DNA from: a virus
Virus record (IMG/VR): IMGVR_UViG_3300046007_001493
Span: 1 to 20,401 of that record
Direction: 5' to 3' (one strand)
Length of the DNA stretch: 20,401 bases
Made by a program: the position numbers and the translations under genes. The notes below the pieces were generated by a model. It was not told where the DNA came from. It did not search any database and worked only from the letters and a program-made list of their open reading frames with translations. Position 1 is the first letter of the stretch. Every line of letters begins with the position of its first letter. Shown piece by piece: positions 1 through 9,951 of the stretch.

Positions 1-50
1 GAGACCTTTGGTGTTGCGATTTTTACTGAGATTGCTTTTCCTCTAGCCAT
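1..50 (-). CDS. 5' end of a small leftward gene (partial)
   Basis: Only the first 16 codons are in the window, reading MARGKAISVKIATPKV. The start is well supported: an AAGAGGAAAC Shine-Dalgarno lies just upstream on the minus strand, and upstream of that is a copy of the recurring TGTCAG-N10-TATAAT promoter. The N-terminus is basic. Function cannot be judged from this fragment. Confidence 0.7.
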   Translation of the reverse strand, partial: MARGKAISVKIATPKV

Positions 51-86
51 TTGTTTCCTCTTTCGTTAGTTGGTTTGGTTAATTGT

Positions 87-108
87 ATTATAGCGGAGGG
101 GTCTGACA
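87..108 (-). promoter_or_regulatory. Recurring phage promoter, copy 1 (TGTCAG-N10-TATAAT)
   Basis: On the minus strand TGTCAG (103-108) is followed after exactly 10 bp by a perfect TATAAT -10 box (87-92). No TTGACA-like hexamer lies 16-18 bp upstream of the -10. It sits between gene 131-307 and the partial gene at 1-50, and is the closest of the seven copies to a consensus -10. Confidence 0.8.
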
Positions 109-130
109 TTTCTGCGACCCCTCCACTTCC

Positions 131-307
131 TTATACTAGGGCTTCGTTGCTAACTGTTGTCCAACGAGTTTCCTTTGTTGGCATTTCCAGTAGCACACGC
201 ACCGAGCCAGATGCGTTAGGAATAATCTCCTTGATTACTCCAGTTTTCTTTGACTTTAGGGTGGTGAATAAATCGCCAACCTTGTAAGTGTATCCATTTA
301 CTGTCAT
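131..307 (-). CDS. Small hypothetical phage protein, 58 aa
   Basis: The frame runs from an ATG at 307 to a TAA at 131 and encodes 58 residues beginning MTVNGYTYKVGDLF and ending SNEALV. An AGAAAGGA Shine-Dalgarno lies 7-8 nt before the ATG. The sequence suggests a small beta-rich fold (GYTYKVGDLFTTLKSKKTGVI, then a second strand pair around RVLLEMPTKETRW). The motif 'GDLF...K.GVI.EI' resembles KOW/SH3-like barrel proteins that are common among phage hypotheticals, but no function can be assigned. It has its own promoter (334-355), so it is a monocistronic unit. The 3' end lies just before promoter copy 1. Confidence 0.8.
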   Translation of the reverse strand: MTVNGYTYKVGDLFTTLKSKKTGVIKEIIPNASGSVRVLLEMPTKETRWTTVSNEALV

Positions 308-333
308 TTTGCTTCCTTTCTGTTTAGGGTGTT

Positions 334-355
334 ATTGTATCATTAGGGTCTGACA
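334..355 (-). promoter_or_regulatory. Recurring phage promoter, copy 2 (TGTCAG-N10-TACAAT)
   Basis: TGTCAG occupies 350-355 and TACAAT 334-339 on the minus strand, with exactly 10 bp between them. It drives gene 131-307. A CRP-type palindrome lies 18 bp upstream, at 374-389. The predicted transcription start is near 327. Confidence 0.75.
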
Positions 356-373
356 TTTATCAAGACCATGCGG

Positions 374-389
374 TGTGATAAGCATCACA
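374..389. promoter_or_regulatory. CRP/GlxR-type palindrome, copy 1
   Basis: The 16-bp site TGTGATAAGCATCACA matches TGTGA-N6-TCACA perfectly. It overlaps the stop codon of gene 385-525 and lies upstream of promoter copy 2; its centre is about 54.5 bp from the predicted start. It is one of four such sites in the leftward block. Confidence 0.65.
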
Positions 390-525
390 AGTATTCTGTT
401 AGGTCGCCGTCCATAATTTCGTTCAGCTCTAAGCCTTCTGAGTCTGCGATAGCTTCCCATAGATCCATTTCATTAAAGTCTCCGTCTGGGTGTCTTTCGG
501 ATAAGATAGAATAAAGATTGTCCAT
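385..525 (-). CDS. Small acidic hypothetical protein, 46 aa
   Basis: A 46-codon frame starts with MDNLYSILSERHPDGDF and ends TEYL-TGA. A very strong Shine-Dalgarno (AGAGGAGG) lies before the ATG, inside the end of the upstream gene, and the two genes overlap as TAATG, so translation is probably coupled. The protein is rich in Asp and Glu and looks helical (EMDLWEAIADSEGLELNEIMDGD). It is the last gene of the 997-to-385 unit. A CRP-type palindrome covers its stop codon. Function unknown. Confidence 0.8.
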   Translation of the reverse strand: MDNLYSILSERHPDGDFNEMDLWEAIADSEGLELNEIMDGDLTEYL

Positions 526-794
526 TAGTAATCCTCCTCTGGTAGCCAAGCATTTAAGTGGTGTGCATCAATAATTGCTGATGCGGGTGCAGTAACCTGT
601 CCACGCCATAACACGCCTTCAGGTAAAGCAATTTCACGATTGTAGTCCTCATCATAGAAAGCATCAATTGCTTCTATGCAAGGCTCAACCATAGAAAGCG
701 GAACGGGTGGATAGTGATTACCTTGCAAGTGATAACCGATAGCAGTTTCTAAGTCTAATTCATTAGATAAATCTAATGCTGTATTGTATCCCAT
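525..794 (-). CDS. Hypothetical phage protein, 89 aa
   Basis: This is an 89-residue, acidic, probably soluble protein. Its conserved-looking core reads LETAIGYHLQGNHYPPVP and then EPCIEAIDAFYDEDYNREIALP, followed by a hydrophobic strand around GVLWRGQVTAPASAIIDAHHLNAWL. The 'AIGYHLQGNHYPPVP' pattern recalls hypothetical proteins in other actinobacterial phages; this is memory of the family, not a search. It is joined to the upstream and downstream genes by TAATG overlaps, placing it in the middle of a three-gene unit. No catalytic motif is visible. Confidence 0.85.
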   Translation of the reverse strand: MGYNTALDLSNELDLETAIGYHLQGNHYPPVPLSMVEPCIEAIDAFYDEDYNREIALPEGVLWRGQVTAPASAIIDAHHLNAWLPEEDY

Positions 795-997
795 TATTCT
801 GCCACCTTAAGAATTGCATAGGACCCGCCTGCATTAATTTCATCAAGGATAGGACCTAACTTTGGTGCGATTAATTCTTTTAGCATAGACTCTAGCATAA
901 AGATACGAGTACTTTCTTCCATGTTTAGAATTTGTGCAGTTACTGGATGATTGTCTGCAAACTCTGTTACAAACTTTAGATTGTGTTCTACTAGCAT
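794..997 (-). CDS. Hypothetical phage protein, 67 aa
   Basis: This is a 67-residue, mostly helical protein (EHNLKFVTEFADNHPVTAQIL, then ESTRIFMLESMLKELIAPKLGPILDEI). An AACGAAAGG Shine-Dalgarno is placed 6-7 nt before the ATG. It is the first gene of the unit driven by promoter copy 3 and overlaps the next gene as TAATG. No known domain is recognised. Confidence 0.85.
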   Translation of the reverse strand: MLVEHNLKFVTEFADNHPVTAQILNMEESTRIFMLESMLKELIAPKLGPILDEINAGGSYAILKVAE

Positions 998-1026
998 TGT
1001 TTACCTTTCGTTGTTGGAATAAGAGT

Positions 1027-1048
1027 ATTTTAGCATGGGCCACTGACA
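1027..1048 (-). promoter_or_regulatory. Recurring phage promoter, copy 3 (TGTCAG-N10-TAAAAT)
   Basis: TGTCAG occupies 1043-1048 and TAAAAT 1027-1032 on the minus strand, with 10 bp between them. It drives genes 794-997, 525-794 and 385-525. A 13-bp inverted repeat directly abuts the TGTCAG element upstream. Confidence 0.75.
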
Positions 1049-1080
1049 ATTAGATAAACACGCCCAATGTTTATCTAATT
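1048..1080. repeat. Perfect 13-bp inverted repeat abutting promoter 3
   Basis: The arms AATTAGATAAACA (1048-1060) and TGTTTATCTAATT (1068-1080) are perfect complements around a 7-nt loop (CGCCCAA). The left arm shares its first base with the TGTCAG box. It could be an operator, or a weak terminator for the upstream unit; the minus-strand U tract is only two bases, so the operator reading is preferred. Confidence 0.7.
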
Positions 1081-1085
1081 TATTT

Positions 1086-1101
1086 TGTGATAAACTTCAC
1101 A
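1086..1101. promoter_or_regulatory. CRP/GlxR-type palindrome, copy 2
   Basis: TGTGATAAACTTCACA is a perfect TGTGA-N6-TCACA match. Its centre is about 73.5 bp upstream of the start predicted for promoter copy 3. It opens the first copy of the duplicated intergenic module. Confidence 0.65.
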
Positions 1102-1193
1102 ATTTCAGGGGTATTTTGGTACTTGACTTAAACTATGTTTTGCCCCCACGAATTTGGGGGCAGCTTAGTCGTTTGTCAAATCACCACGCCGTT
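1086..1193. repeat. Duplicated intergenic module, copy A
   Basis: In plus-strand order this copy contains the CRP-type palindrome, a CAGGGGT block, a GCCCCC-N8-GGGGGC hairpin (1142-1161), a CAGCTT...TTGTCAA block, and ACGCCGTT. The same elements occur in the same order at 2209-2318. The hairpin lies just after the stop codon of gene 1165-1305 in the minus-strand direction, but no U tract follows it on that strand. The two DnaA boxes of copy B are not intact here. Confidence 0.65.
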
Positions 1194-1305
1194 TATGTTT
1201 GATCTTGCGTGTGTATTTTTTTTTATTGCGTACAGGTTGCGCCGCATTACTGCGACGCAATTCCTGTATGCGTTTTACTTTATCTCGAAGTGAAGTTTGG
1301 AACAT
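1165..1305 (-). CDS. Small strongly basic protein, 46 aa (probable)
   Basis: The frame starts at an ATG (1305), 26 nt inside the end of gene 1280-1471, and ends with TAA at 1165. The protein is very basic, with MFQTSLRDKVKRIQELRRSN followed by a run rich in Lys and Arg (NKKKYTRKIKHKRRGD). That composition would suit a nucleic-acid-binding peptide. The Shine-Dalgarno is weak (GTGTGGG), so expression would depend on coupling to the upstream gene. Its 3' end lies in duplicated module A, and the matching part of module B is non-coding. The frame could therefore be partly fortuitous. Confidence 0.55.
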   Translation of the reverse strand: MFQTSLRDKVKRIQELRRSNAAQPVRNKKKYTRKIKHKRRGDLTND

Positions 1306-1471
1306 TGTACCCACACGCTTCATGAAATCTAGTTACATCAAATCGTTCATTATCTTTCGCAAACATTTCCGCAAAATCATTTACGATTTTAGAAAATAAA
1401 GCGGGGTGCGTTTTATCGCTAGCAAACTTTAGAATTTCTGCGGTTGCTACATAGTCCTTACGTGTCATCAT
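1280..1471 (-). CDS. Conserved hypothetical phage protein, 63 aa
   Basis: The 63 residues include MTRKDYVATAEILKFASDK, ALFSKIVNDFAEMFAKDN and RFDVTRFHEACGY. This pattern closely resembles a short protein family found in many unrelated phages, whose function is not known to me. Two ATG codons stand in tandem. The first overlaps the upstream stop as ATGA, so translation is probably coupled, and the second (1468) would give the usual MTRKDY start. The protein is helical and has no transmembrane segment. Confidence 0.85.
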   Translation of the reverse strand: MMTRKDYVATAEILKFASDKTHPALFSKIVNDFAEMFAKDNERFDVTRFHEACGYNVPNFTSR

Positions 1472-1686
1472 TTTGTTACCAACTTTCCTGAACGATAAAA
1501 GTGTTTGGTGTGCATTTTACCTGAAGGCTCTGACAAATTAACAGTAGAAAACTCATCTGCAAAACCCCAATCAGAAAAACTGCGGTATGAATTAACTGCA
1601 TCTAAACAGTTATCAAAACGGGCTACCCAATGAGGTGGCTTTCCGTCATAGGAACAAGTTACTGCATAAAGATACTCTTTCTCCAT
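1468..1686 (-). CDS. Hypothetical protein, 72 aa
   Basis: The chosen start reads MEKEYLYAVTC; a GGAG Shine-Dalgarno at 1696-1699 is well spaced for it. An in-frame ATG five codons earlier lies too close to that signal. The protein has a beta-strand-like N-terminus (EYLYAVTCSYDGKPPHWVARF), then DAVNSYRSFSDWGFADEFSTVNL, and a basic tail. It could be a small fold that binds a substrate or nucleic acid, but nothing specific is recognisable. The start codon follows the upstream TAA by one base. Confidence 0.8.
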   Translation of the reverse strand: MEKEYLYAVTCSYDGKPPHWVARFDNCLDAVNSYRSFSDWGFADEFSTVNLSEPSGKMHTKHFYRSGKLVTK

Positions 1687-1687
1687 T

Positions 1688-1840
1688 TTAGTAATCTCCA
1701 ATTTCGTTAGTTACGCAATCGCATGGCTCGACATCATAGGAGTTTTCATCTCCCCAAAAAATTGCCCCAAATCCTAAGCAATCATCACACACAATGACGG
1801 AGATAGTTCCCTCGTCCATTACATCTAAGAAGTTTCCCAT
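1688..1840 (-). CDS. Small Cys-rich (possible zinc-binding) protein, 50 aa
   Basis: The frame runs from an ATG at 1840, with an AACGAAAGG Shine-Dalgarno, to a TAA at 1688. The protein begins MGNFLDVMDEGTISVIVCDD. It carries CDDC near residue 18 and a second pair CDC near residue 40, a CX2C...CXC layout that could bind zinc. It is otherwise acidic. It is the first gene of the unit from promoter copy 4, followed by 1468-1686 and 1280-1471. Zinc binding is inferred from cysteine spacing only. Confidence 0.8.
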   Translation of the reverse strand: MGNFLDVMDEGTISVIVCDDCLGFGAIFWGDENSYDVEPCDCVTNEIGDY

Positions 1841-1872
1841 TTATAGTTTTCCTTTCGTTTGTTTGTTTTGTA

Positions 1873-1894
1873 ATTATAGCGGAAGGGTCTGACA
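1873..1894 (-). promoter_or_regulatory. Recurring phage promoter, copy 4 (TGTCAG-N10-TATAAT)
   Basis: TGTCAG occupies 1889-1894 and a perfect TATAAT 1873-1878 on the minus strand, 10 bp apart. The box lies two bases after the stop codon of gene 1897-2106, so there is no room for upstream operator sites outside that gene. Confidence 0.8.
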
Positions 1895-1896
1895 AA

Positions 1897-2106
1897 TTAG
1901 TCAGACACCTTGACGGCAATCGTAGCCCAAAAATTAGCAATGTTACGAGTAGAGGAAACCTGAATAGCGTAAACCTCGTACCCCTCGCCATACCAAATGC
2001 CTTCACGCTTTTCTGCGTGTAGAATAGTGCCCTCATCATGGCGAGAGCGTGAGCGATAGTGTGTGCCTACAAGTAGGGCGGGAACAGTTATTACTTTTGC
2101 TGACAT
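1897..2106 (-). CDS. Hypothetical protein, 69 aa
   Basis: This 69-residue protein probably forms a small beta barrel: MSAKVITVPALLVGTHYRSR, then GTILHAEKREGIWYGEGYEVYAIQV, then FWATIAVKVSD. It has no signal peptide or transmembrane segment. The Shine-Dalgarno is AACGAAAGGTG. It has a dedicated promoter (copy 5), and promoter copy 4 begins almost at its stop codon. Function unknown. Confidence 0.8.
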   Translation of the reverse strand: MSAKVITVPALLVGTHYRSRSRHDEGTILHAEKREGIWYGEGYEVYAIQVSSTRNIANFWATIAVKVSD

Positions 2107-2138
2107 TAGTTGTCACCTTTCGTTTGGTTATGTATGGA

Positions 2139-2160
2139 ATTATACACGAACGGACTGACA
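2139..2160 (-). promoter_or_regulatory. Recurring phage promoter, copy 5 (TGTCAG-N10-TATAAT)
   Basis: TGTCAG occupies 2155-2160 and TATAAT 2139-2144 on the minus strand, with 10 bp between them. Gene 1897-2106 follows. A TCACA-A-TGTGA everted half-site pair (2185-2195) and a full CRP-type palindrome (2209-2224) lie upstream. Confidence 0.8.
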
Positions 2161-2208
2161 TAAACTAATTACTAGCCAGTAATTTCACAATGTGAGACGC
2201 TCAAGTTA

Positions 2209-2224
2209 TGTGATAAATCTCACA
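2209..2224. promoter_or_regulatory. CRP/GlxR-type palindrome, copy 3
   Basis: TGTGATAAATCTCACA is a perfect TGTGA-N6-TCACA match. Its centre is about 84.5 bp from the predicted start of promoter copy 5. It opens copy B of the duplicated module and lies 12 bp from the first DnaA box. Confidence 0.65.
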
Positions 2225-2236
2225 AATTTTCAGGGG

Positions 2237-2266
2237 TTATCCACAGATCTTCTTAAGTTATCCACA
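2237..2266 (+). other. Pair of perfect DnaA boxes, possible replication origin
   Basis: TTATCCACA occurs at 2237-2245 and again at 2258-2266, in direct orientation with starts 21 bp apart, about two helical turns. Both match the strongest bacterial DnaA box. Neighbouring hairpins and a CRP-type site add to an origin-like appearance. No replication initiator gene is visible, so origin function is inferred. Confidence 0.55.
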
Positions 2267-2316
2267 GCCCCCTCTCCTTTGGGGGCCAGCTTGACTATTG
2301 TCAAGCCGACACGCCG

Positions 2317-2499
2317 TTATTCTTCTAAACTATCTTGATAATCTAAAAGGCCTTGATGGTACATAACAGGATCACAATTAAAAAGAATTTCAGAGGCGGT
2401 AAAAGTAGAGTATCCAATCTTTACGGGTGGATAGCATTCATCTAACATAGAGTCGTAGCTTTCTTTTATCTCTAATTCTTTTTCAAAATCTGTTTTCAT
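2317..2499 (-). CDS. Hypothetical protein, 60 aa
   Basis: This 60-residue acidic protein starts MKTDFEKELEIKESYDSM. A strong Shine-Dalgarno (AAGGAGGT) lies inside the end of the upstream mini-gene, which it overlaps as ATGA. The N-terminal half is helical. The centre reads PPVKIGYSTFTASEILFNCDPVMYHQGLLDY, a pattern I vaguely associate with short phage proteins of unknown role. It is the last gene of the unit from promoter copy 6. Confidence 0.8.
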   Translation of the reverse strand: MKTDFEKELEIKESYDSMLDECYPPVKIGYSTFTASEILFNCDPVMYHQGLLDYQDSLEE

Positions 2500-2570
2500 T
2501 TATTTACCTCCTTAGTAGCGATTAAATACGCTATACCAAAACCTACCATGGCACACAATAACACCGCCAT
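2496..2570 (-). CDS. Single-pass membrane micropeptide, 24 aa (probable)
   Basis: The frame has an ATG directly after the TAA of gene 2571-2756 (TAAATG), with GGAG 8-9 nt upstream. It ends in ATGA with the next gene. The peptide begins MAVLLCAMVGFGIAYLIA and ends in a short charged tail (TKEVNK), so it is essentially one transmembrane helix. Tight packing between two coupled genes argues that it is translated. It might modulate the host membrane, a holin or superinfection, but that is a guess. Confidence 0.65.
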   Translation of the reverse strand: MAVLLCAMVGFGIAYLIATKEVNK

Positions 2571-2756
2571 TTACTTATCTCCAAACATGTTAAAGACTTC
2601 ATCTAGTTGCTCATCTGTTAAGTGGTCTATCTGTATAGCCTTAACAAATCCGAACACATCTTCTTCTTCTGCCATTAGTTGCTCATACATTTCTTCTTCT
2701 TGTAGGTGTGCATACATGTCGCTTACATCTGCCTGAATTGTATCCCATTTAGTCAT
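2571..2756 (-). CDS. Acidic helical protein, 61 aa
   Basis: This 61-residue, strongly acidic protein reads MTKWDTIQADVSDMYAHLQE, then MYEQLMAEEEDVFGFVKAIQ, then LTDEQLDEVFNMFGDK. It is probably all helical, possibly a coiled coil. A GGAG Shine-Dalgarno lies just upstream of the ATG. Acidic small proteins of this kind can be DNA mimics or host-factor inhibitors in phages, but nothing here proves that. It lies within the promoter-6 unit, one gap base after the previous stop-codon region. Confidence 0.8.
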   Translation of the reverse strand: MTKWDTIQADVSDMYAHLQEEEMYEQLMAEEEDVFGFVKAIQIDHLTDEQLDEVFNMFGDK

Positions 2757-2759
2757 TAG

Positions 2760-2927
2760 TTATTCTCCTACCTTGATAGACATTACATTAGCGGTGAACT
2801 TCTTAACCTTGCCTAATTCGCTAGCGTTAAGAGATTGGATTAGGTGGTCAATCGCTTTAGGGTCATGCGCCACATTGTCAATAGAGATTAGTTTAGAGCC
2901 TTGCCAAATTGAGTAAGTGATAGTCAT
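2760..2927 (-). CDS. Small hypothetical protein, 55 aa
   Basis: The 55-codon frame runs from an ATG at 2927 to a TAA at 2760. It starts MTITYSIWQGSKLISIDN; a helix follows (DPKAIDHLIQSLNASELGKVKKF) and then a final strand (TANVMSIKVGE). The beta-alpha-beta look suggests a compact soluble domain. Its Shine-Dalgarno (AACGAAAGAAG) is weaker than its neighbours'. It is the first gene of the promoter-6 unit. Function unknown. Confidence 0.8.
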   Translation of the reverse strand: MTITYSIWQGSKLISIDNVAHDPKAIDHLIQSLNASELGKVKKFTANVMSIKVGE

Positions 2928-2962
2928 TGTCTGTTCTTCTTTCGTTAGTAGTTATAGTAGGA

Positions 2963-2984
2963 ATTGTAGAGGATAGGGCTGACA
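2963..2984 (-). promoter_or_regulatory. Recurring phage promoter, copy 6 (TGTCAG-N10-TACAAT)
   Basis: TGTCAG occupies 2979-2984 and TACAAT 2963-2968 on the minus strand, 10 bp apart. It sits 18 bp after the stop of gene 3003-3140 and drives the four-gene unit 2927 to 2317. No CRP-type palindrome precedes it. Confidence 0.75.
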
Positions 2985-3002
2985 AATGGTAGCGACACGC
3001 TC

Positions 3003-3140
3003 TTAGTTAGAGTGTGATTTAGAACACCATGTCTGGTGTATTGCTAGGTATCTACACTCTGAGCAGATAGCGTCTCCTAGTCGTGCTAGTAGTTGCTCTC
3101 TGCTTTCTAGAGAGTTTCTGTTTTCATGTATTGAGTTCAT
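3003..3140 (-). CDS. Small Cys/His-containing protein, 45 aa
   Basis: The 45-codon frame starts MNSIHENRNSLESREQLLAR and ends SKSHSN-TAA. A strong AGAAAGGAG Shine-Dalgarno precedes it. The second half has CSEC followed by HQTWC and a late His (CX2C...HX3C), compatible with a single zinc finger. An amphipathic helix precedes it. It is the first gene of the leftward block and has its own promoter (copy 7). Zinc binding is inference. Confidence 0.75.
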   Translation of the reverse strand: MNSIHENRNSLESREQLLARLGDAICSECRYLAIHQTWCSKSHSN

Positions 3141-3172
3141 TTAGAACTCCTTTCTGTTTATCTAATACCTTT

Positions 3173-3194
3173 ACTCTACAGGGGGTCACTGACA
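3173..3194 (-). promoter_or_regulatory. Recurring phage promoter, copy 7 (TGTCAG-N10-TAGAGT)
   Basis: TGTCAG occupies 3189-3194 and TAGAGT 3173-3178 on the minus strand, again 10 bp apart. The -10 is the weakest of the seven. A CRP-type palindrome lies upstream at 3252-3267. It drives gene 3003-3140. Confidence 0.65.
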
Positions 3195-3251
3195 AATTCT
3201 AATCGAAATTCGGACATTAAGGACATTTATAAAAATAATCGCAAAAAATCA

Positions 3252-3267
3252 TGTGATAAGGGTCACA
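3252..3267. promoter_or_regulatory. CRP/GlxR-type palindrome, copy 4
   Basis: TGTGATAAGGGTCACA is a perfect TGTGA-N6-TCACA match. It lies in the divergent region between the leftward block and the HNH gene. Its centre is about 93.5 bp upstream of the start predicted for promoter copy 7. Confidence 0.65.
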
Positions 3268-3275
3268 TCTGGGAG

Positions 3276-3308
3276 CACTATAGGGACAATTCGGACATTT
3301 CTATAGTG
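3276..3308. repeat. 8-bp inverted repeat CACTATAG / CTATAGTG
   Basis: Perfect arms at 3276-3283 and 3301-3308 enclose 17 nt containing TTCGGACATT. That 10-mer also occurs near 3209-3218, followed by a related AAGGACATT. The cluster lies between the divergent promoters and could be an operator region. Confidence 0.5.
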
Positions 3309-3360
3309 TGTATCATACAAATTAAAACTCTATTAACATTTCTTAAAATCTAATTCCTAG

Positions 3361-3389
3361 TTGACCAGAATGTAATAGTACGCTATTAT
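3361..3389 (+). promoter_or_regulatory. Sigma70-type promoter for the HNH gene, leaderless layout
   Basis: TTGACC (3361-3366), a 17-bp spacer and TATTAT (3384-3389) make a near-consensus promoter. The normal start point, seven bases after the -10, falls on the A of the HNH gene's ATG (3396). The mRNA would therefore be leaderless, and there is no Shine-Dalgarno in the seven bases between. Confidence 0.7.
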
Positions 3390-3395
3390 AGATAC

Positions 3396-3812
3396 ATGGA
3401 AATATGGAAAGAAGTACCAGTAATTGTGCAACGTAATGGTTCATTCAAGCCACATGGATACGAAGTATCTAATTTAGGGCGGGTAAGAACCAAGAAGCAA
3501 AGATATGGAAGACCTAGAAAAGATACAGGTAAAAGACAGGATCTTCTTGTATATCGATATGTAAATGGAAGACCAGATCAAGTTGGTTATATCCAATATG
3601 AGCTATATGATGAAAACTCAAAGAGAAAAAATATCCGTGGACATGTACTTGTTATGCAAGCATTTGTTGGCATACCAAATCCTGGTCAAGTAGTTTGTCA
3701 TTTTGACGATGTCAAAAATAATAACACCTTGGCTAACTTGAGATATGACACTCAAAAGAATAATCTGGCAGATGCCAGGAGAAATAAATTTTTGCAAACT
3801 ATTGACCTATAA
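3396..3812 (+). CDS. NUMOD4/HNH homing endonuclease
   Basis: This 138-residue DNA endonuclease is of the free-standing homing type found in phages. The N-terminus has the NUMOD4 DNA-binding motif (EIWKEVPVI, then GYEVSNLGRVR, residues 2-31). The C-terminal half is an HNH_3-type nuclease: RGHVLVMQAFVG with His83, VVCHFDDVKNNN with His102 and Asn109/110, then LANLRYDTQKNN. The active-site residues look intact. Such enzymes nick or cut a cognate site and spread their own gene. It stands alone with its own promoter and runs away from the leftward block. Short AAAATCTAATT-type sequences lie on both sides. The target site is not identifiable here. Confidence 0.93.
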   Translation: MEIWKEVPVIVQRNGSFKPHGYEVSNLGRVRTKKQRYGRPRKDTGKRQDLLVYRYVNGRPDQVGYIQYELYDENSKRKNIRGHVLVMQAFVGIPNPGQVVCHFDDVKNNNTLANLRYDTQKNNLADARRNKFLQTIDL

Positions 3813-4049
3813 AAATCTTCCATGTTACAATTGGAAAGGTTTCGGGGGTTACACTAAGAACTCAATATGCCAGATGTATTGCATATGATCTTTGTGAACT
3901 TTCTCTACTTTCCTTTAAGTTAAAAAAAGGGGGGTAGGGGGGGTTTGCTAAAAATCTAATTTCCAGATGAAGTATTAAAAAAAATATTATATTAACATTA
4001 TATAAGACTAAAATCTTAGTCAACTAAAATAATAGAGAGAAGCAAAATA
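3813..4049. other. Intergenic region with poly-A/poly-G tract
   Basis: No convincing gene is present. It holds A7 then G6-TA-G7 (3922-3943), a second AAAATCTAATTT block near 3950, an AT-rich stretch with a GACTAA-AATC-TTAGTC inverted repeat (about 4007-4022), and the leader of gene 4050-4244. On the minus strand, TTGACT, 17 bp and TAATGT could form an antisense promoter, but this is weak. Confidence 0.5.
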
Positions 4050-4244
4050 ATGGCTACAAAAAAAGCGGGAAAAGAAGTAGAAAACACCACTTGCTACACA
4101 TATAAAGTAGAGATGTTAATTCAAGTCCTTGCTAAGGATGAACCAACAGCTTTGGATCAATTAGAAAAATCTGGTGGCTATGTTACAGATAGACAAGTTA
4201 CTCTAATGGATAGTGTTGCTTTATATAATGGTGAAAAGGGATAA
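4050..4244 (+). CDS. Conserved small phage protein, 64 aa
   Basis: The 64 residues start with a basic leader (MATKKAGKEVEN) and continue YTYKVEMLIQVLAKDEPTAL, DQLEKSGGYVTDRQVTLMDS, VALYNGEKG. It resembles short hypothetical proteins I associate with actinobacterial phages, in which a beta strand, helix and beta strand (VEMLIQVLA / ALDQLEK / RQVTLMDSVAL) follow a variable start. A GAGAGAAG Shine-Dalgarno lies 8-9 nt upstream. It is monocistronic, and a series of hairpins ending in a terminator follows. Function unknown. Confidence 0.85.
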   Translation: MATKKAGKEVENTTCYTYKVEMLIQVLAKDEPTALDQLEKSGGYVTDRQVTLMDSVALYNGEKG

Positions 4245-4277
4245 CTTTTTATCTCCCGCCCTTTTAAGGGGTAGGAT

Positions 4278-4334
4278 GTGGTGATACCACCAAATAACCC
4301 TGTTAGGGCCTTAAAACCCTCTCAGGGTATTTTT
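4278..4334 (+). terminator. Hairpin series ending in a rho-independent terminator
   Basis: GTGGT-GAT-ACCAC (4278-4290) and CCCT-GTT-AGGG (about 4298-4308) are followed by ACCCT-CTC-AGGGT (4316-4328) with the U-rich ATTTTTA. The last hairpin is the likely terminator of gene 4050-4244. Confidence 0.65.
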
Positions 4335-4449
4335 ATGGGGTATTATAGGAAATAGCTAAGATGTGAAAATGGGGTCTCTTCTCGCCGAAGCACTTTTTTC
4401 GCACTAATTGCACTATATGACCGATATGTCCTATATTATATGCATATAT

Positions 4450-4537
4450 AACAAGAAACCCAATCAGAGGCGAATTGGGTTCTTTATATCTTGCGATATA
4501 TGTACGTAGGAACATGTGGGATGCTACAACTACGCAC
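4450..4537 (-). ncRNA. Candidate structured small RNA (three stem-loops)
   Basis: A consensus promoter (4544-4572) predicts a start at 4537. The minus-strand transcript folds from its first base. GTGCGTAG pairs with CTACGTAC (8 bp, one G-U, 20-nt loop). TATATC-GCAA-GATATA then gives a 6-bp stem with a GNRA tetraloop. Last comes an AACCCAAT/ATTGGGTT terminator stem (4453-4484). The GNRA loop exists only on the minus strand, which supports this direction. The only overlapping long frame would start at a TTG with no Shine-Dalgarno, so an RNA is more likely than a protein. Family unknown. Confidence 0.5.
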
Positions 4538-4543
4538 AATTCA

Positions 4544-4572
4544 ATTGTAAAATAGCTTTTATTCTAAGTCAA
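4544..4572 (-). promoter_or_regulatory. Sigma70-type promoter upstream of the candidate small RNA
   Basis: On the minus strand TTGACT (4567-4572), a 17-bp spacer and TACAAT (4544-4549) form a good promoter. It lies directly after the stop codon of gene 4579-4800 and points to the structured segment, not to any good coding start. Confidence 0.65.
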
Positions 4573-4578
4573 CTGTTT

Positions 4579-4800
4579 TTAAAATAAAGTTTGCTGACCA
4601 TCTTCGTCTGGTGCAGAGTATGATGGGGCGGGTCCAAGAAGGTACCCTTCCTCATGATATGAAACCATCTTAGATACATCCTCTGGCCCAACTAGTTTAT
4701 TTGCAATAATTGTTAATAGGTCATATATACGGTGTAACATAATATAATTAACCATTGGTAGGTTATCTTCTAATGCTGAGGATTTTTCTTCATTTGTCAT
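4579..4800 (-). CDS. Hypothetical protein, 73 aa
   Basis: The 73 residues start MTNEEKSSALEDNLPMVNYI and contain an amphipathic helix (MLHRIYDLLTIIANKL). A Pro/Ser/Asp-rich, probably flexible tail follows, ending GQQTLF. The QxxLF-type C-terminus faintly resembles sliding-clamp (DnaN) binding motifs of the QLxLF type; with only this resemblance it is a hint, not a call. It overlaps the upstream 35-codon gene by 11 nt. The Shine-Dalgarno is AGGT. It is the last gene of the leftward operon headed by the muralytic protein. Confidence 0.8.
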   Translation of the reverse strand: MTNEEKSSALEDNLPMVNYIMLHRIYDLLTIIANKLVGPEDVSKMVSYHEEGYLLGPAPSYSAPDEDGQQTLF

Positions 4801-4897
4801 CTGGTCTACCTAAGTCTTCCCAAAATTTTTCCCGCCCCATATTATCAGTTGGAATAATAGGGGTGCTGTTACATTGGCAATCTTTATCACATGTCAT
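4790..4897 (-). CDS. Cys-rich micropeptide, 35 aa (probable)
   Basis: This 35-codon frame begins MTCDKDCQCNSTPIIP and ends with a helical, charged half (NMGREKFWEDLGRPDDK). It overlaps both neighbours by 11 nt, in an otherwise gapless operon, and has AAGG seven nt before its ATG. Removing it would leave an unexplained gap in the operon. The CX3CXC cluster could bind metal or form disulfides. Function unknown. Confidence 0.65.
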   Translation of the reverse strand: MTCDKDCQCNSTPIIPTDNMGREKFWEDLGRPDDK

Positions 4898-5108
4898 TTT
4901 TAACCTTTTTCATAGTCTTTATAATTTCGTCATAAAAACCAAATCCTATAAATTTTTTATATTCACAAGATAGGCAATACAAGTATACCTCGTCTTCATT
5001 TGTCTGATTAGGAAGAAGAAGACCTTGATCTAGTGGGCAAACCAATCTAGGAACAAGGCCTTCTTCAGAAAGTGCTATGTATTGAGATACTTGCTGTATC
5101 CTACGCAT
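4887..5108 (-). CDS. Zinc-ribbon-like hypothetical phage protein, 73 aa
   Basis: The 73 residues include LVCPLDQGLLLPNQ followed by YLYCLSCEYKKFIGFGFYDEI. A single Cys in the first knuckle and CLSC in the second make a partial zinc-ribbon-like pattern (CP..D / CXXC). Similar 'CP.DQGLL....YCLSC.YK' proteins occur in other phages as hypotheticals, by my recollection. The Shine-Dalgarno AGGAGA overlaps the TAG stop of the upstream muralytic gene, so the two are co-transcribed. Confidence 0.85.
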   Translation of the reverse strand: MRRIQQVSQYIALSEEGLVPRLVCPLDQGLLLPNQTNEDEVYLYCLSCEYKKFIGFGFYDEIIKTMKKVKNDM

Positions 5109-5114
5109 TTTCTC

Positions 5115-5666
5115 CTACTTCAAGGTAGTTGGGAATTTAGTATAAAATTCCTTCGCTCTTGGGGTTAGACCCTTCCAAGCTGACCAATTTGTACCGCCCT
5201 TGGTCATATAGTACGTTATCTCTGCGTTTATTACTGGATCAAATAGTAGTACATTTGATCGCAGGTCAAATTTTTCTTTACGAGCAACACCAAGGTTTCC
5301 CAACATGTTGATCTGAAAAATTCCATAGGAACTGTCTCCAGTATTCCTGTTGCCATTATATGCTAGTGGGCGTCCACTGGACTCCGTCTTTGCAATGGCC
5401 CAAGCCGTTCTAAGGGCTTTTCCTTCAAAACCTACTGCTGCCAGTAGTTCTTTCAATTCAATGTCTGAAAGCTTTTCCGAAGGCTTGTAAACAGTATTGC
5501 TGTACTTCTCTAAGGTTTCTTGCTTAAGTTGTACTTCTGTCTTTGGTTCTACTTTTAAAGCTTGAGCGGGGATCACGGTATTGTTTGTAAATAGGAATAA
5601 TGTTATCATTACTACTACAGTCGTACTGTGAGCAAAATCGCTTAGCTTTTGCTTTATATTCTCCAT
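5115..5666 (-). CDS. Secreted SLT/lysozyme-fold muralytic protein
   Basis: This 183-residue protein has a lytic-transglycosylase-like (SLT) domain in its C-terminal two thirds. The catalytic Glu is in AIAKTESSGRP (about residue 95), followed by the family motif GDSSYGIFQINM and later NAEITYYMTKGGTNWSAWKG. The N-terminus has a hydrophobic stretch (VVVMITLFLFTN) and then PAQA, a plausible signal-peptidase site, so it is likely exported and acts on peptidoglycan outside the membrane. The start at 5666 is preferred: AAAGGAGG is 8 nt upstream of it but only 2 nt from the ATG at 5672. It heads the leftward operon. Its role could be cell-wall entry or lysis. Confidence 0.88.
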   Translation of the reverse strand: MENIKQKLSDFAHSTTVVVMITLFLFTNNTVIPAQALKVEPKTEVQLKQETLEKYSNTVYKPSEKLSDIELKELLAAVGFEGKALRTAWAIAKTESSGRPLAYNGNRNTGDSSYGIFQINMLGNLGVARKEKFDLRSNVLLFDPVINAEITYYMTKGGTNWSAWKGLTPRAKEFYTKFPTTLK

Positions 5667-5699
5667 TGGCATTTCCTCCTTTAGAGATAACGAACTATA

Positions 5700-5729
5700 A
5701 TCTTAACATTGTCAGTAAGTTACTGTCAA
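5700..5729 (-). promoter_or_regulatory. Sigma70-type promoter with embedded palindrome, for the muralytic operon
   Basis: On the minus strand TTGACA (5724-5729) is a perfect -35, followed by 18 bp and TAAGAT (5700-5705). An imperfect 21-bp palindrome, TTGTCAGTAA-G-TTACTGTCAA (5709-5729, one mismatch), covers the -35 and spacer and may be an operator. Confidence 0.7.
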
Positions 5730-5751
5730 GTCAGTTGACCAGAAAGATATT

Positions 5752-6744
5752 ATGGATATTTCATTTTCTACGCCAATAAGTAACCTAAAAACTTCAAATG
5801 GTTACGGTCATGCTGCGTCAAGAATAGTAGATTCATTAAAAAGATTAGGTCATAATGTACCATTTCAGGACGCAAGGGCGGATGTTCAATTAAATTTTTC
5901 TCAGCCTGTGTATTATAAGTTACACAGAAATCAGTATCAAATTAGTTATACACCATGGGAATCAACAGTTGTCCCAAAGGAATGGTTTGAGTATTTAGAC
6001 GCATGTAATGAAATATGGACAACTTCAGATTGGTGCAAAGAAGTTTTTGAAGCAAATGGAATTAAAGATGTTAAAGTTTTTCCACATGGTATTGATCCAA
6101 TATGGAGACCAAAGAAAAGAAAGCTAGAACATGGTAGACCAATAAAATTTTTGCATGTTGGTGAGCCAGCACCAAGAAAAGCAGGACAAATGGTGGTAGA
6201 CGCATTTACAGCTTTGTATGGAAATAACCCCTTTTACTCTTTAACCATAAAAGCATATAAGAGCAATACTACCCGTATCTATAATAACTATATGGATAAA
6301 AACATAATCGGTGTTCCAGATGAAAAGTTTAGTAATATAAAAATAATTACAGAAGATATGTCAGAAGAAGAACTGGTAAAACTTTATCATGACCATGATG
6401 TTTTAATTTATCCAAGTTATGGTGAAGGATTTGGGTTTATTCCATTTCAAGCACTTGCTACTGGTATGCCAGTAATTTGTACAGATGGTTGGGCCCATTA
6501 CGATAAGTATCTTGGTCCACTAAAATTAAAATCAGATTTAGTTAAATCACCTTGGCCAGTTCATGAAGGTAAAGTTTTTGAACCAGAGTATCAACATCTA
6601 CTTGAGCTTATGAGAGATGTTTCAATCAACTACAATGGATATGCTGGATATTACTTCGCCCAGTCAACTAAACTTCATGAAGAATATAATTGGGATCGGT
6701 TGACTAATAAGGCCTTTGAGCATATTTTTAAAAAGTTTTCTTAA
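5752..6744 (+). CDS. GT4-type glycosyltransferase
   Basis: This 330-residue GT-B fold glycosyltransferase is related to family 4. The C-terminal donor domain has FLHVGEPAPRKAG (about 133-145), then VLIYPSYGEGFGFIPFQALATGMPVICTD (217-245). In most GT4 enzymes this segment reads E-X7-E; here Glu225 is present but the second position is Gln233. The N-terminal half has YGHAASRIVDSLKRLGH and SYTPWESTVVPKEW, typical of phage and bacterial 'glycosyltransferase group 1' proteins that act on unknown acceptors. The likely role is modification of phage DNA, virion proteins or host envelope glycans. It diverges from the muralytic operon. The Shine-Dalgarno is weak (AGAAAG). No transmembrane segment is seen. 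Confidence 0.9.
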   Translation: MDISFSTPISNLKTSNGYGHAASRIVDSLKRLGHNVPFQDARADVQLNFSQPVYYKLHRNQYQISYTPWESTVVPKEWFEYLDACNEIWTTSDWCKEVFEANGIKDVKVFPHGIDPIWRPKKRKLEHGRPIKFLHVGEPAPRKAGQMVVDAFTALYGNNPFYSLTIKAYKSNTTRIYNNYMDKNIIGVPDEKFSNIKIITEDMSEEELVKLYHDHDVLIYPSYGEGFGFIPFQALATGMPVICTDGWAHYDKYLGPLKLKSDLVKSPWPVHEGKVFEPEYQHLLELMRDVSINYNGYAGYYFAQSTKLHEEYNWDRLTNKAFEHIFKKFS

Positions 6745-6833: not shown

Positions 6834-8768
6834 ATGTCAAGAACTATTGAAAACCCGTACGAAAACTTTATTGCTTTGTCTCGCTATGCAAGATGGATGC
6901 CAGAGCAAAATCGTCGTGAAACATGGGGTGAGACAGTAGATCGTTATTTTGACTATATGCTAGGACATCTAGATAAGAATTATAGCTATAAGCCAGATGC
7001 AAAGATTGTTGAAGAACTTCGCAATGCTGTATTTAATCGTAATGTTATGCCATCAATGCGATCAGTAATGACTGCAGGTGCTGCATTAGATAGAGATCAT
7101 GTTGCAGGGTATAACTGTTCATTTGTTCCAGTAGATAATCCAAGATCATTTGATGAAACAATGTATATCTTGATGTGTGGAACAGGTGTTGGATTCTCTG
7201 TTGAGTATAAGTATGTTAATAAGCTTCCTGCCGTCCCAGATTCATTAGAAAAGTCAAACACAGTTGTCATTGTTGAAGATTCAAAGCAGGGCTGGGCTAA
7301 AGCATACCGTGAACTACTTGCATTGCTATGGTCAGGACAGATTCCAGCAATTGATGTTAGCAAGTTGCGACCAGCAGGCGCAAGACTAAAGACTATGGGC
7401 GGAAGATCATCAGGTCCACAACCGCTAGTTAATCTTTTTGATTTTACAATTGCAAAGTTTAAGTCTGCAACAGGACGTCAGTTAAAGCCAATTGAGGCAC
7501 ATGACATTATGTGTAAGATTGGAGAGATTGTAGTTGTTGGCGGAGTTCGCAGATCAGCAATGATTTCTCTTTCAAATATTAATGATATTGAAATGGCTCA
7601 AGCCAAGTCAGGTAACTGGTGGGAGAATAACTCACAGCGTGCATTGTCAAACAACTCTGTTGCATATTCTCGCAAGCCAGAGATGGAGCAGTTTATTGCA
7701 GAATGGAAATCTTTATATGATTCAAAATCAGGAGAACGTGGAATTTACAATGTTGCAGCAGCACAAGCACAGGCAGCAAAGTACGGACGAAGAGATCCAG
7801 AGATTCATTATGGAACAAACCCATGTTCAGAAATTATTCTACGACCTTATCAGTTTTGTAATCTTTCAGAAGTCGTATTACGTGAAAAGGACACAGTTGA
7901 AGATGTCAAAAATAAAGTTCGCCTTGCAACAATTCTTGGAACGTGGCAGTCAACATTAACTGATTTTAAGTACCTTCGTAAAATTTGGAAGGACAATACA
8001 GAAGAGGAGCGTTTGCTAGGAGTATCTTTAACTGGACAATTTGGACATAAGTTTTTTTCTGGTAAAGAAGATATTAATAAATTAGAAAAGGTTTTAGTAA
8101 GCCTTCGTGAGTCAGCAAGAGATGTAAACAAGTCTGAAGCCAATAAGATTGGAATTCAGGAATCTGCTGCAATCACATGTGTAAAGCCTTCAGGAACTGT
8201 TTCACAGCTTGTAGGAGTTTCTTCAGGAATGCACCCATGGCATTCAGATTATTATATTCGTACAGTTCGTGGAGACAAGAAAGATCCAATTTCTACATTC
8301 TTAAAGGAAGTCGGAATCCCAGTAGAAGATGATGTAATGAAGCCAAATGATACATACGTATTTTCATTTCCAGTTAAAGCACCAGAAGGCGCAATTGTTA
8401 GAAATGATTTAACAGCACTTGATCATTTAAAGACATGGCTAGTTTATCAGCGTGCATGGTGTGAGCACAAGCCATCAATTACAGTATCTGTAAAAGAAGA
8501 AGAGTGGATGGAAGTTGGTGCTTGGGTATATAAGCATTTTGATGAGGTATCTGGAATTTCATTCTTGCCGCATTCAGATCATACATATAAGCAGGCTCCA
8601 TATCAGGAAGTAGACAAGCAAGAATATCTAGATTTGCTTTCAAAGATGCCAAAAGATATTCGGTGGGAAGATTTATCTTTCTACGAGACAGAGGACGGGA
8701 CTAGCGGCTCACAAACCCTAGCCTGTACTTCTGACGGAAACTGTGAGATTGTAGATATTTCAGCTTAA
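6834..8768 (+). CDS. nrdJ: Adenosylcobalamin-dependent ribonucleoside-triphosphate reductase (class II)
   Basis: This enzyme makes deoxyribonucleotides from ribonucleotides using coenzyme B12, feeding phage DNA synthesis. It matches the monomeric Lactobacillus-type family. Cys95 in GYNCSFVPVD, GTNPCSEIIL with the thiyl-radical Cys331 and Glu333, FCNLSE with Cys342 and a C-terminal Cys631/Cys637 pair (CX5C) are all present, as are GGRSSGPQP and GGVRRSAMISLS. At 644 residues it is about 100 shorter than the 739-residue L. leichmannii enzyme. The ATG at 6834 (MSRTIENPYENF) is preferred over a GTG four codons earlier, because AAAAGG is well spaced for it. B12 must come from the host. No cobalamin riboswitch is evident upstream. 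Confidence 0.96.
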   Translation: MSRTIENPYENFIALSRYARWMPEQNRRETWGETVDRYFDYMLGHLDKNYSYKPDAKIVEELRNAVFNRNVMPSMRSVMTAGAALDRDHVAGYNCSFVPVDNPRSFDETMYILMCGTGVGFSVEYKYVNKLPAVPDSLEKSNTVVIVEDSKQGWAKAYRELLALLWSGQIPAIDVSKLRPAGARLKTMGGRSSGPQPLVNLFDFTIAKFKSATGRQLKPIEAHDIMCKIGEIVVVGGVRRSAMISLSNINDIEMAQAKSGNWWENNSQRALSNNSVAYSRKPEMEQFIAEWKSLYDSKSGERGIYNVAAAQAQAAKYGRRDPEIHYGTNPCSEIILRPYQFCNLSEVVLREKDTVEDVKNKVRLATILGTWQSTLTDFKYLRKIWKDNTEEERLLGVSLTGQFGHKFFSGKEDINKLEKVLVSLRESARDVNKSEANKIGIQESAAITCVKPSGTVSQLVGVSSGMHPWHSDYYIRTVRGDKKDPISTFLKEVGIPVEDDVMKPNDTYVFSFPVKAPEGAIVRNDLTALDHLKTWLVYQRAWCEHKPSITVSVKEEEWMEVGAWVYKHFDEVSGISFLPHSDHTYKQAPYQEVDKQEYLDLLSKMPKDIRWEDLSFYETEDGTSGSQTLACTSDGNCEIVDISA

Positions 8769-8784
8769 TGGTAGAATAATAGTA

Positions 8785-8823
8785 TTGGGGGAAATACCCT
8801 CAAAATTCTGGGCACAACGCCCA
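8785..8823 (+). promoter_or_regulatory. Two small hairpins in the holin leader
   Basis: TTGGGGG...CCCTCAA (about 8785-8803) and TGGGC-ACAAC-GCCCA (8809-8823) lie between the reductase stop and the holin's GGAG Shine-Dalgarno. No U tract follows. They could attenuate transcription or translation of the holin. Confidence 0.45.
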
Positions 8824-8840
8824 AAATTGGAGATGATCAA

Positions 8841-9068
8841 ATGAACAGAGATCTAAACAAGGACGGAAAGGTTACAATGACAGAGGAAATTTTAGCAGCG
8901 CTAGGAACATATGCACGAGCATTTCTTTCAGCAGCAATTGCTTTGTACATGACTGGAAATACAAATCCAAGAGATTTGCTAATGGGTGGCGTTGCCGCCG
9001 TTGCTCCAGTAATTTTGAAGGCTCTTAGCCCAAGTAATAAAGAATTTGGCTTTAAGTCAGCCAAGTAA
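8841..9068 (+). CDS. Holin
   Basis: This is a 75-residue small membrane protein. The N-terminus reads MNRDLNKDGKVTMTEEILAA, an EF-hand-like D-N-D-G loop. A first hydrophobic helix (YARAFLSAAIALYMTG), a short polar turn (NTNPRDL) and a second helix (LMGGVAAVAPVILKAL) follow, with a charged tail. This layout matches actinophage holins with the same leader, which open the membrane for lysis. It lies apart from the muralytic gene, which is on the other strand about 3 kb away. A strong terminator follows. Confidence 0.85.
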   Translation: MNRDLNKDGKVTMTEEILAALGTYARAFLSAAIALYMTGNTNPRDLLMGGVAAVAPVILKALSPSNKEFGFKSAK

Positions 9069-9087
9069 TTAAACACGATTAGGATTG

Positions 9088-9117
9088 CTCCTATGCTAAA
9101 ATGAGCATAGGAGTTTT
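9088..9117 (+). terminator. Rho-independent terminator after the holin
   Basis: CTCCTATGCT (9088-9097), the loop AAAATG and AGCATAGGAG (9104-9113) form a perfect 10-bp stem followed by TTTTCCT. It separates the reductase/holin unit from the tail-fibre cassette. Confidence 0.85.
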
Positions 9118-9138
9118 CCTATTTAGGAGTACTAGTAA

Positions 9139-9486
9139 ATGGCAGGACAAAAAAATTGGGAAGTAGATCAAAATGCTACTTTCTCGTTTATCGTTGAATA
9201 CAAAGATCCAGAAGGCGATCCTATAGATCTCACTGGAGCTTCCGCTAAAATGCAGGTCCGTGATACAAAAGGCGGAAGCAAGTTAGCGTTTACATTAACT
9301 TCACCTAGCGGTGGAATAACGATTGATCCTACCAATGGCCAGCTCACAATTAGGATGACACCTACCCAGACAAACAAATTGTTTTTTCCAAAATCCTCAT
9401 ACGATATTATGCTTACTGACTCAAACTCAAATAAGGTTAAGATACTTGAAGGATTTATGACATTATCAAGGTCGGTGACAATATAA
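9139..9486 (+). CDS. BppU-like tail/baseplate protein
   Basis: This 115-residue protein begins MAGQKNWEVDQNATFSFIVE, with DPIDLTGASAKMQVRD in the middle and YDIMLTDSNSNKVKILEGFM near the end. The pattern (a 'GA.A.MQVRD' strand, then 'YDI.L.D.....I..G...L..SVT') is that of the N-terminal domain of phage baseplate upper proteins, a beta sandwich that anchors receptor-binding fibres. It is the first gene after the terminator, with an AGGAG Shine-Dalgarno. It ends in TAATG overlap with the next gene. An adaptor role for fibres is the likely job. Confidence 0.8.
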   Translation: MAGQKNWEVDQNATFSFIVEYKDPEGDPIDLTGASAKMQVRDTKGGSKLAFTLTSPSGGITIDPTNGQLTIRMTPTQTNKLFFPKSSYDIMLTDSNSNKVKILEGFMTLSRSVTI

Positions 9487-9941
9487 TGGTAGATTTAGTA
9501 ACGTCTATATCATCTAGAAATCAAGTTACAGTAACAGTTCCTGGACCACAAGGCCCAAGAGGAAAAACAATATTAAATGGATCTGGCGTACCAGCAAATA
9601 ACTTGGGGCTACAAAATGATTATTACTACGATACAGTATCAAAAATATTTTATGGTCCAAAGCCATCTGACGTAACATGGTCTGGTGCAGTAACAGTTAC
9701 TTTGGGGCCTGGCGCTGCTGGAAATTACGCACATACAGCAACATGGGAAATTGGTTCCGTAACAGGCCCAGTCAATGAAATTTATTCAAAAGCAATAACA
9801 CATAACTTAGGTTTCTATCCTAATGTAACAATTAAGGATAGTGCAGGAAATATATTAGAAACAGGAATAGACTATAATAGTCTTAACCAAATAACACTTA
9901 CGATGGCTCAACCATTCGGAGGGACAGCTTACCTGTCATAA
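9486..9941 (+). CDS. Fibre protein with a short collagen-like segment
   Basis: The N-terminus is [20 protein letters not shown], then a single GPQGPRGK collagen-like stretch, then a [18 protein letters not shown] module common in phage fibres. The C-terminal part has [20 protein letters not shown], a domain usually seen at fibre ends ('THNLG.YP.V...D..G'). At 151 residues it could be a short adaptor or side fibre. It is coupled to the upstream gene by TAATG. No catalytic features. Confidence 0.82.
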
Positions 9942-9951
9942 GGAGAAAAAA

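Follow-up and report, generated by a model that had tools for sequence, protein, structure and literature searches.

CRP/GlxR-type sites in helical register with a TGTCAG promoter class in a predicted actinophage

The window analysed here, a stretch of 20,401 nt from a single virus record, raises the question of why a phage should carry perfect copies of a bacterial operator in front of its own promoters. CRP-family regulators, including actinobacterial GlxR, recognise TGTGA-N6-TCACA, and a direct check found this 16-mer at the four places reported by the first-pass annotation, against 0.02 occurrences expected from shuffled sequence. All four predicted sites are read on the minus strand, that of the leftward promoters: 374-389 lies 18 bp upstream of the TGTCAG box of the promoter at 334-355 (TGTCAG-N10-TACAAT), 1086-1101 lies 37 bp upstream of 1027-1048 (TGTCAG-N10-TAAAAT), 2209-2224 lies 48 bp upstream of 2139-2160 (TGTCAG-N10-TATAAT) and 3252-3267 lies 57 bp upstream of 3173-3194 (TGTCAG-N10-TAGAGT). 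With the start placed 7 nt after the -10 hexamer, the site centres fall at about -54.5, -73.5, -84.5 and -93.5, as had been given; three of them had been described as in phase, but all four share one helical register. The sites had also been assigned to four promoters, which is correct for the perfect copies, but a fifth promoter (TGTCAG-N10-TACAAT, 2963-2984, minus strand) has a degraded site with two mismatches, GGTGTTCTAAATCACA, 28 bp upstream at 3013-3028 on the same strand, which occupies the missing 28-bp step in the same register. The original observation is thus confirmed, and was understated. One detail proved less general, since the spacer begins with TAA in all four window sites but in related phages this is a tendency and no invariant trinucleotide; among 281 sites in those relatives, 173 have ATCACA as the promoter-proximal half and 116 have TGTGAT as the distal half.

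The promoters themselves form a distinct leftward class, TGTCAG-N10-TAtaaT. The looser pattern TGTCAG-N10-TA...T has eight matches in the window, five of them with an upstream site. The remaining three, all on the minus strand, are two promoters with TATAAT at 87-108 and 1873-1894 and a promoter-like TAAAAT match at 1514-1535 inside the ORF at 1468-1701. The gap of 10 bp is strict (36 instances of TGTCAG-N10-TATAAT, against 0-1 at other gaps), and an extended -10 TG is frequent. Relative to the predicted start the box occupies -28 to -23; in place of the standard sigma-70 layout, in which TTGACA at -35 stands some 17 bp from TATAAT, there is no conserved element at the -35 position. A dedicated box in place of the -35 element with the -10 element kept is also the plan of the T4 middle promoters, with their MotA box near -30, although the box here differs and is placed about 5 bp nearer to the -10. 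These predicted promoters serve a block of small leftward ORFs (131-2927, minus strand), which are presumably early genes; those scanned gave no Pfam match and one PHROG match, of unknown function. A search for a phage sigma factor returned only sub-threshold Sigma70_r4-like matches to short HTH ORFs, no RNA family was found in positions 1-6000, and BLAST of the promoter DNA against sequenced phages gave no match. When a genome collection was scanned for the full site-promoter architecture, the 33 matches were mostly scattered and repeats occurred on a single contig; a host regulon sharing this architecture was rejected, that contig (L222) being probably a misbinned phage.

The geometry is best seen in the relatives, which were collected by ribonucleotide reductase (RNR), a gene unrelated to the sites, and amount to about 1.04 Mb. 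Failure of the motif to exceed chance had been named in advance as an outcome that would undo the reading; the relatives hold 104 perfect copies, far above the 0-5 found for seven control patterns, and the six-nucleotide spacer is strict (among these controls, the half-sites occur with N5 in no case and with N7 once). A site with at most one mismatch precedes 71 of 104 non-redundant promoters, and its spacing to TGTCAG is quantised, with a phase concentration of R=0.72 at a period of 10.2, where random values reached 0.39 at most. Of 292 site-promoter pairs from 284 loci, 237 stand at 18, 28, 38, 48, 58 or 69 (+-1) bp, compared with 32 at half-turn positions, where a conserved minority class occurs at 33/34 bp. 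In two near-complete relatives (113 and 98 kb), every promoter and every perfect site lies within one leftward block. By sequence, the fixed geometry and the above-chance palindrome are those expected of CRP/GlxR operators.

WhiB, encoded in 14 of 20 large relatives, together with capsid/RNR synteny, marks these phages by sequence as actinophages related to the Stanwilliamsviridae. They share with Yaboi, Annadreamy and other Streptomyces phages of that family a leftward arm of small genes followed by a rightward glycosyltransferase-RNR segment. The full RNR/capsid/arm synteny was found in relative G001, whose RNR is about 65% and major capsid protein about 61% identical to theirs, while the window itself covers the RNR side only. 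TGTGA-N6-TCACA is absent from the arms of Yaboi and Annadreamy, and their GC content is about 50% and 47%, compared with about 40% in the phages described here. From WhiB, the low GC and the synteny with Streptomyces phages, small low-GC actinobacterial genomes are the likely host type. Naming the host through isolate phages failed, as the two cultured Nanopelagicales phages, of 39 kb, belong to another group (PMC10202952), and a WhiB search for a host clue returned Streptomyces phages alone.

Which protein, then, would read the sites? The first-pass annotation had offered either the host CRP/GlxR, possibly as a sensor of cAMP or carbon status, or a CRP-like protein of the phage. The phage protein was not borne out and was rejected, since a cNMP-binding domain was found in none of 20 large phage records and HTH_Crp_2 in none of 15 phages, with positive controls in both searches. 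GlxR was found in 39 of 40 small actinobacterial genomes; its recognition helix, ASRETVNKALADFA, is identical in the low-GC genomes and the same as in Corynebacterium glutamicum, and the GlxR of candidate hosts keeps the cNMP pocket cassette. The likely binder is therefore the GlxR of the host, as CRP-family and cyclase domains are missing from the relatives scanned and genomes of the host type retain a GlxR with the same recognition helix as in C. glutamicum. The proposed use of a host regulator therefore stands in part: the motif is linked to promoters across related phages and matches a host-type GlxR, but tuning by carbon status or cAMP is unsupported, given that no class III cyclase was found in the 26 candidate host genomes and that these show no motif enrichment (3 perfect copies against 7 for the control, 402 against 411 with at most one mismatch). 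No cyclase was found in 15 phages either, and mycobacterial CRP functions without cAMP (PMC4005916). Many larger Actinomycetes are enriched over control (for example, 23 versus 0 and 20 versus 0). The sites agree with known operators of C. glutamicum GlxR and M. tuberculosis CRP (Rv3676) in exact consensus, intergenic position and location upstream of promoters, but differ in standing on phage promoters with the phage-specific TGTCAG-N10-TATAAT core and in that the motif is no commoner than its control in the genomes of candidate hosts. This lack of enrichment, the phage-specificity of both promoter class and sites (essentially one phage-like contig carried repeats in the architecture scan) and the many small leftward ORFs of unknown family would also fit a phage regulator of another protein family that has converged on TGTGA-N6-TCACA and activates or represses. 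We regard such a regulator as unlikely, although it is the strongest of the alternatives: no CRP-type domain occurs in the 15-20 large relatives, and the motif agrees exactly with the CRP/GlxR consensus, strict spacer included.

The reading that we favour, with somewhat better than even confidence, is that the sites are operators for host CRP/GlxR, recruited as an upstream activator of the phage-specific promoter class. A GlxR dimer would bind upstream at a distance of between one helical turn and several, invariably on one face of the double helix, with centres at about -54.5, -64.5, -74.5, -84.5 and -94.5, and would aid RNA polymerase; the alpha C-terminal domain, a factor on the TGTCAG box or both would probably mediate this. 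The phage would thus contribute operators and no regulator, and the host GlxR; activation rather than another effect is our inference. Centres about 10 bp, or one turn, apart show the spacing of class I promoters. E. coli class I CRP promoters such as lac and malT likewise have single upstream sites in helical-turn steps, centred at -61.5, -71.5, -81.5 and -91.5 (PMC10882989). In contrast, the register here would lie about 3 bp further upstream (about -64.5/-74.5/-84.5, with the start predicted as 7 nt after the -10), the -54.5 site is nearer than class I permits, and the conserved TGTCAG at -28 to -23 stands where no canonical -35 exists. The shifted register, the half-turn minority class and the lack of motif enrichment and of a class III cyclase in candidate hosts speak against the favoured reading. 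A phage promoter bearing sites for a host transcription factor has been described in GIL01, with host LexA (PMC4551915); however, that phage is temperate and LexA-repressed, whereas the array here is phased, CRP-type and apparently activating.

The DnaA protein of the host may provide a further input at many units, where boxes for it are found immediately past the GlxR site. Pairs of boxes 21 bp apart flank many CRP-type sites, a feature that is new here; in the window, two plus-strand copies of TTATCCACA at 2237-2245 and 2258-2266 lie just promoter-distal (upstream) of the site at 2209-2224. More tentatively, the two boxes, the GlxR site and the TGTCAG promoter at helical steps could form a composite module, repeated along one gene block, that reads two host master proteins. 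If so, it would tie the expression of phage genes to the replication and growth state of the host, or else deprive the host of its DnaA and GlxR, and would need no CRP-family regulator from the phage. The sites might, on the other hand, chiefly serve for titration, drawing the host's GlxR to phage DNA, as the boxes would draw its DnaA, and so upset host regulation and replication initiation. Large phage records have as many as 10 perfect sites each, whereas the genomes of candidate hosts have 0-1, and the boxes are concentrated beside the CRP-type sites, but titration has no need of a strict helical register to promoters, and we think it improbable as the main role. We give equally little credence to repression of the TGTCAG promoters by host GlxR, released under some condition; CRP-family proteins are able to repress, but the phased sites at -54 to -94 never cover the core promoter and no repression-type overlap was seen. 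Chance palindromes of AT-rich DNA are ruled out for practical purposes by the shuffles, the control patterns, the counts in relatives and the phased spacing.

Actinophages of fresh water are abundant, and hardly any have been cultured. In the open literature we found no description of the timing of their gene expression, and nothing relevant on GlxR/CRP sites in phage early promoters. Perfect CRP/GlxR sites at helix-turn distances before one promoter class suggest that this family of uncultured viruses borrows a host regulator, possibly with DnaA, for one block of genes. That candidate hosts keep GlxR, yet show no class III cyclase and no motif enrichment, raises the question of the role of GlxR in genome-streamlined bacteria. 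The site-promoter signature could help to recognise phages of this group and the type of host that they infect, and a repeated, strictly phased promoter grammar with a host master regulator provides a concrete hypothesis that cultures of 'Ca. Planktophila' or a reporter in C. glutamicum could put to the test.

The four perfect TGTGA-N6-TCACA sites reported in the first-pass annotation are confirmed at 374-389, 1086-1101, 2209-2224 and 3252-3267 of the window, against a mean expectation of 0.02 in dinucleotide shuffles, and on the minus strand each precedes a leftward TGTCAG-N10-TA...T promoter. Between the end of each site and the T of TGTCAG there are, in this order, 18, 37, 48 and 57 bp. A fifth, degraded site with two mismatches (3013-3028, minus strand) lies 28 bp upstream of the 2963-2984 promoter, so that the window contains a ladder of 18/28/37/48/57 bp with one helical turn per step. 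With the predicted start (+1) set at the conserved A located 7 nt after the -10 hexamer, the site centres fall at about -54.5, -64.5, -73.5, -84.5 and -93.5. The distances first estimated were correct in value; three of them were then described as roughly helical steps apart, but all share one register.

The pattern is genuine and general, with a tight structure. In 80 relatives retrieved via ribonucleotide reductase (RNR), a gene unconnected with the motif, plus the window, the perfect site occurs 104 times compared with 0-5 times for seven control patterns, an enrichment that the first-pass annotation had proposed to look for; the same half-sites were found 0 times with an N5 spacer and once with an N7 spacer. 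The core promoter TGTCAG-N10-TATAAT occurs 36 times, against 0-1 for each of the other gaps between 6 and 19. Sites with no more than one mismatch precede 71 of 104 non-redundant promoters, and their distances concentrate at a period of about 10.2 bp (R=0.72; maximum among 2000 random sets, 0.39). Adding loci from pattern scans of the viral collection, which are valid for the distance distribution and not for frequency because they were chosen by pattern, gave 292 site-promoter pairs, 237 in register and 32 at the half-turn. In the related loci of sets A and B this minority lies nearly always at exactly 33/34 bp, and ATGTCCG often follows the 33/34-bp sites directly.

Two relatives, of 113 and 98 kb, are near complete, and in both of them one leftward block of about 10 kb contains all TGTCAG promoters and all perfect sites; elsewhere no promoter and only one site with one mismatch occur. 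Clustering of this kind recurs in other large records. The counterpart of the block in the Stanwilliamsviridae of Streptomyces is the leftward small-gene arm ahead of the glycosyltransferase and RNR, and the relative G001 is ~61% identical to that family in the major capsid protein and ~65% in RNR. No TGTGA-N6-TCACA sites are present in the two Streptomyces phage arms examined (Yaboi and Annadreamy), so the feature belongs, as far as tested, to the low-GC branch. The scanned leftward ORFs of the window matched no Pfam family, and one matches a PHROG of unknown function; from the arm position, we infer that these window ORFs are early genes. The full promoter architecture also occurs three times in a 110-kb contig filed under uncultured cyanobacterium (CAINGU010000031.1), which is probably a misbinned actinophage. 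Window 9952-12906 encodes a long collagen-like protein of G-x-Q-G-T/x repeats, probably a tail fibre, and the relative G001 (L236, L241) carries host-like accessory genes for a carbamoyltransferase, ferritin, Hsp20, subtilase, a luciferase-like monooxygenase and an NMN transporter.

A phage-encoded CRP-like protein, one binder suggested earlier, fails as an explanation, as CRP-type domains were not found in the large relatives (cNMP-binding domain, 0/20 records; HTH_Crp_2, 0/15; control genomes positive for both). Class III cyclase was likewise found in 0/15 large phage records, with control genomes positive. WhiB, not known outside Actinobacteria and their phages, is present in 14/20 large records. 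Using a C. glutamicum GlxR sequence validated against PDB 4byy as the query, a GlxR orthologue of 51-56% identity was found in 39 of 40 small genomes of the class Actinomycetes. The low-GC genomes share an invariant GlxR recognition helix, ASRETVNKALADFA, and nearly all retain the cNMP cassette FGELSLFDPGPRTS or a near form of it. These genomes match 'Ca. Nanopelagicales', which dominate among freshwater actinobacteria, in size and GC and may belong there; such low-GC Actinobacteria are the presumed phage hosts. The lack of phage CRP and cyclase domains, the WhiB genes of the phages and the conserved GlxR helix together point to host GlxR as the most economical binder of the sites, and a host regulator is the best available reading.

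The proposed tuning by cAMP or carbon status is unsupported, because the 26 low-GC candidate host genomes have neither a motif excess nor a detected class III adenylate cyclase: perfect sites total 3 versus 7 for the control, and one-mismatch sites 402 versus 411. G067, G148 and G251 are examples among the 26 of an intact GlxR helix and cNMP cassette, yet without a detected cyclase or enrichment of the motif. If these genomes are the hosts, their GlxR has few or weak targets or is cAMP-independent; the apo-CRP of M. tuberculosis can work without cAMP (PMC4005916). Compared with the class I centres of E. coli (PMC10882989), the register, as reckoned from the predicted start, is also displaced upstream by about 3 bp. 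The core promoter is unusual, without a -35 element, with TGTCAG at -28 to -23 and frequently with an extended -10. The offset may arise from this core or from an error in the predicted start.

Perfect DnaA boxes (TTATCCACA) adjoin many of the sites on the promoter-distal side, giving a common layout of DnaA boxes, CRP site and phage promoter. The window has a pair 21 bp apart (2237-2245 and 2258-2266), a spacing seen in 29 cases. Of 90 boxes in relatives, 47 lie no more than 150 bp from a site, versus 2.7 expected. Among 312 non-redundant units, 92 have a box within 120 bp upstream and none has one between site and promoter; the distance from box to site is most often near 13 or 34 bp. Boxes accompany 78/279 promoters with a CRP site versus 57/444 without, a contrast to which longer intergenic regions at site-bearing promoters could contribute. 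In most low-GC genomes examined, dnaA is itself surrounded by boxes of this form. At the phage boxes DnaA may regulate, be titrated or mark origins. Box pairs cluster within this leftward block (set A loci, window 2237-2266, and 8711-12879 of G004). Further motifs upstream of TGTCAG promoters in related loci hold fixed positions relative to TGTCAG: TGTCCG at about -32 and -23, CGACACGC at -26, GCGTGTCG at -17 and TTACTGGC at -22/-23.

Judged from sequence, GlxR would act upstream of the promoter as an activator, which is favoured by sites that never overlie the core promoter, that occupy one helix face at integral turns, and whose better half-site is the one nearer the promoter (ATCACA, 173/281; distal TGTGAT, 116/281). 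GlxR could contact either the alpha C-terminal domain or some factor at TGTCAG. A 48-aa HTH ORF follows a RuvC-like gene in G001 (L240:13956-14102), with similar places in other records; most large relatives give a weak match to Sigma70_r4 for this ORF, and its product is a possible candidate for the TGTCAG-binding factor. Phage promoters under a host regulator are a known kind, to which, on the best available reading, those described here would belong; their composite layout is unusual.
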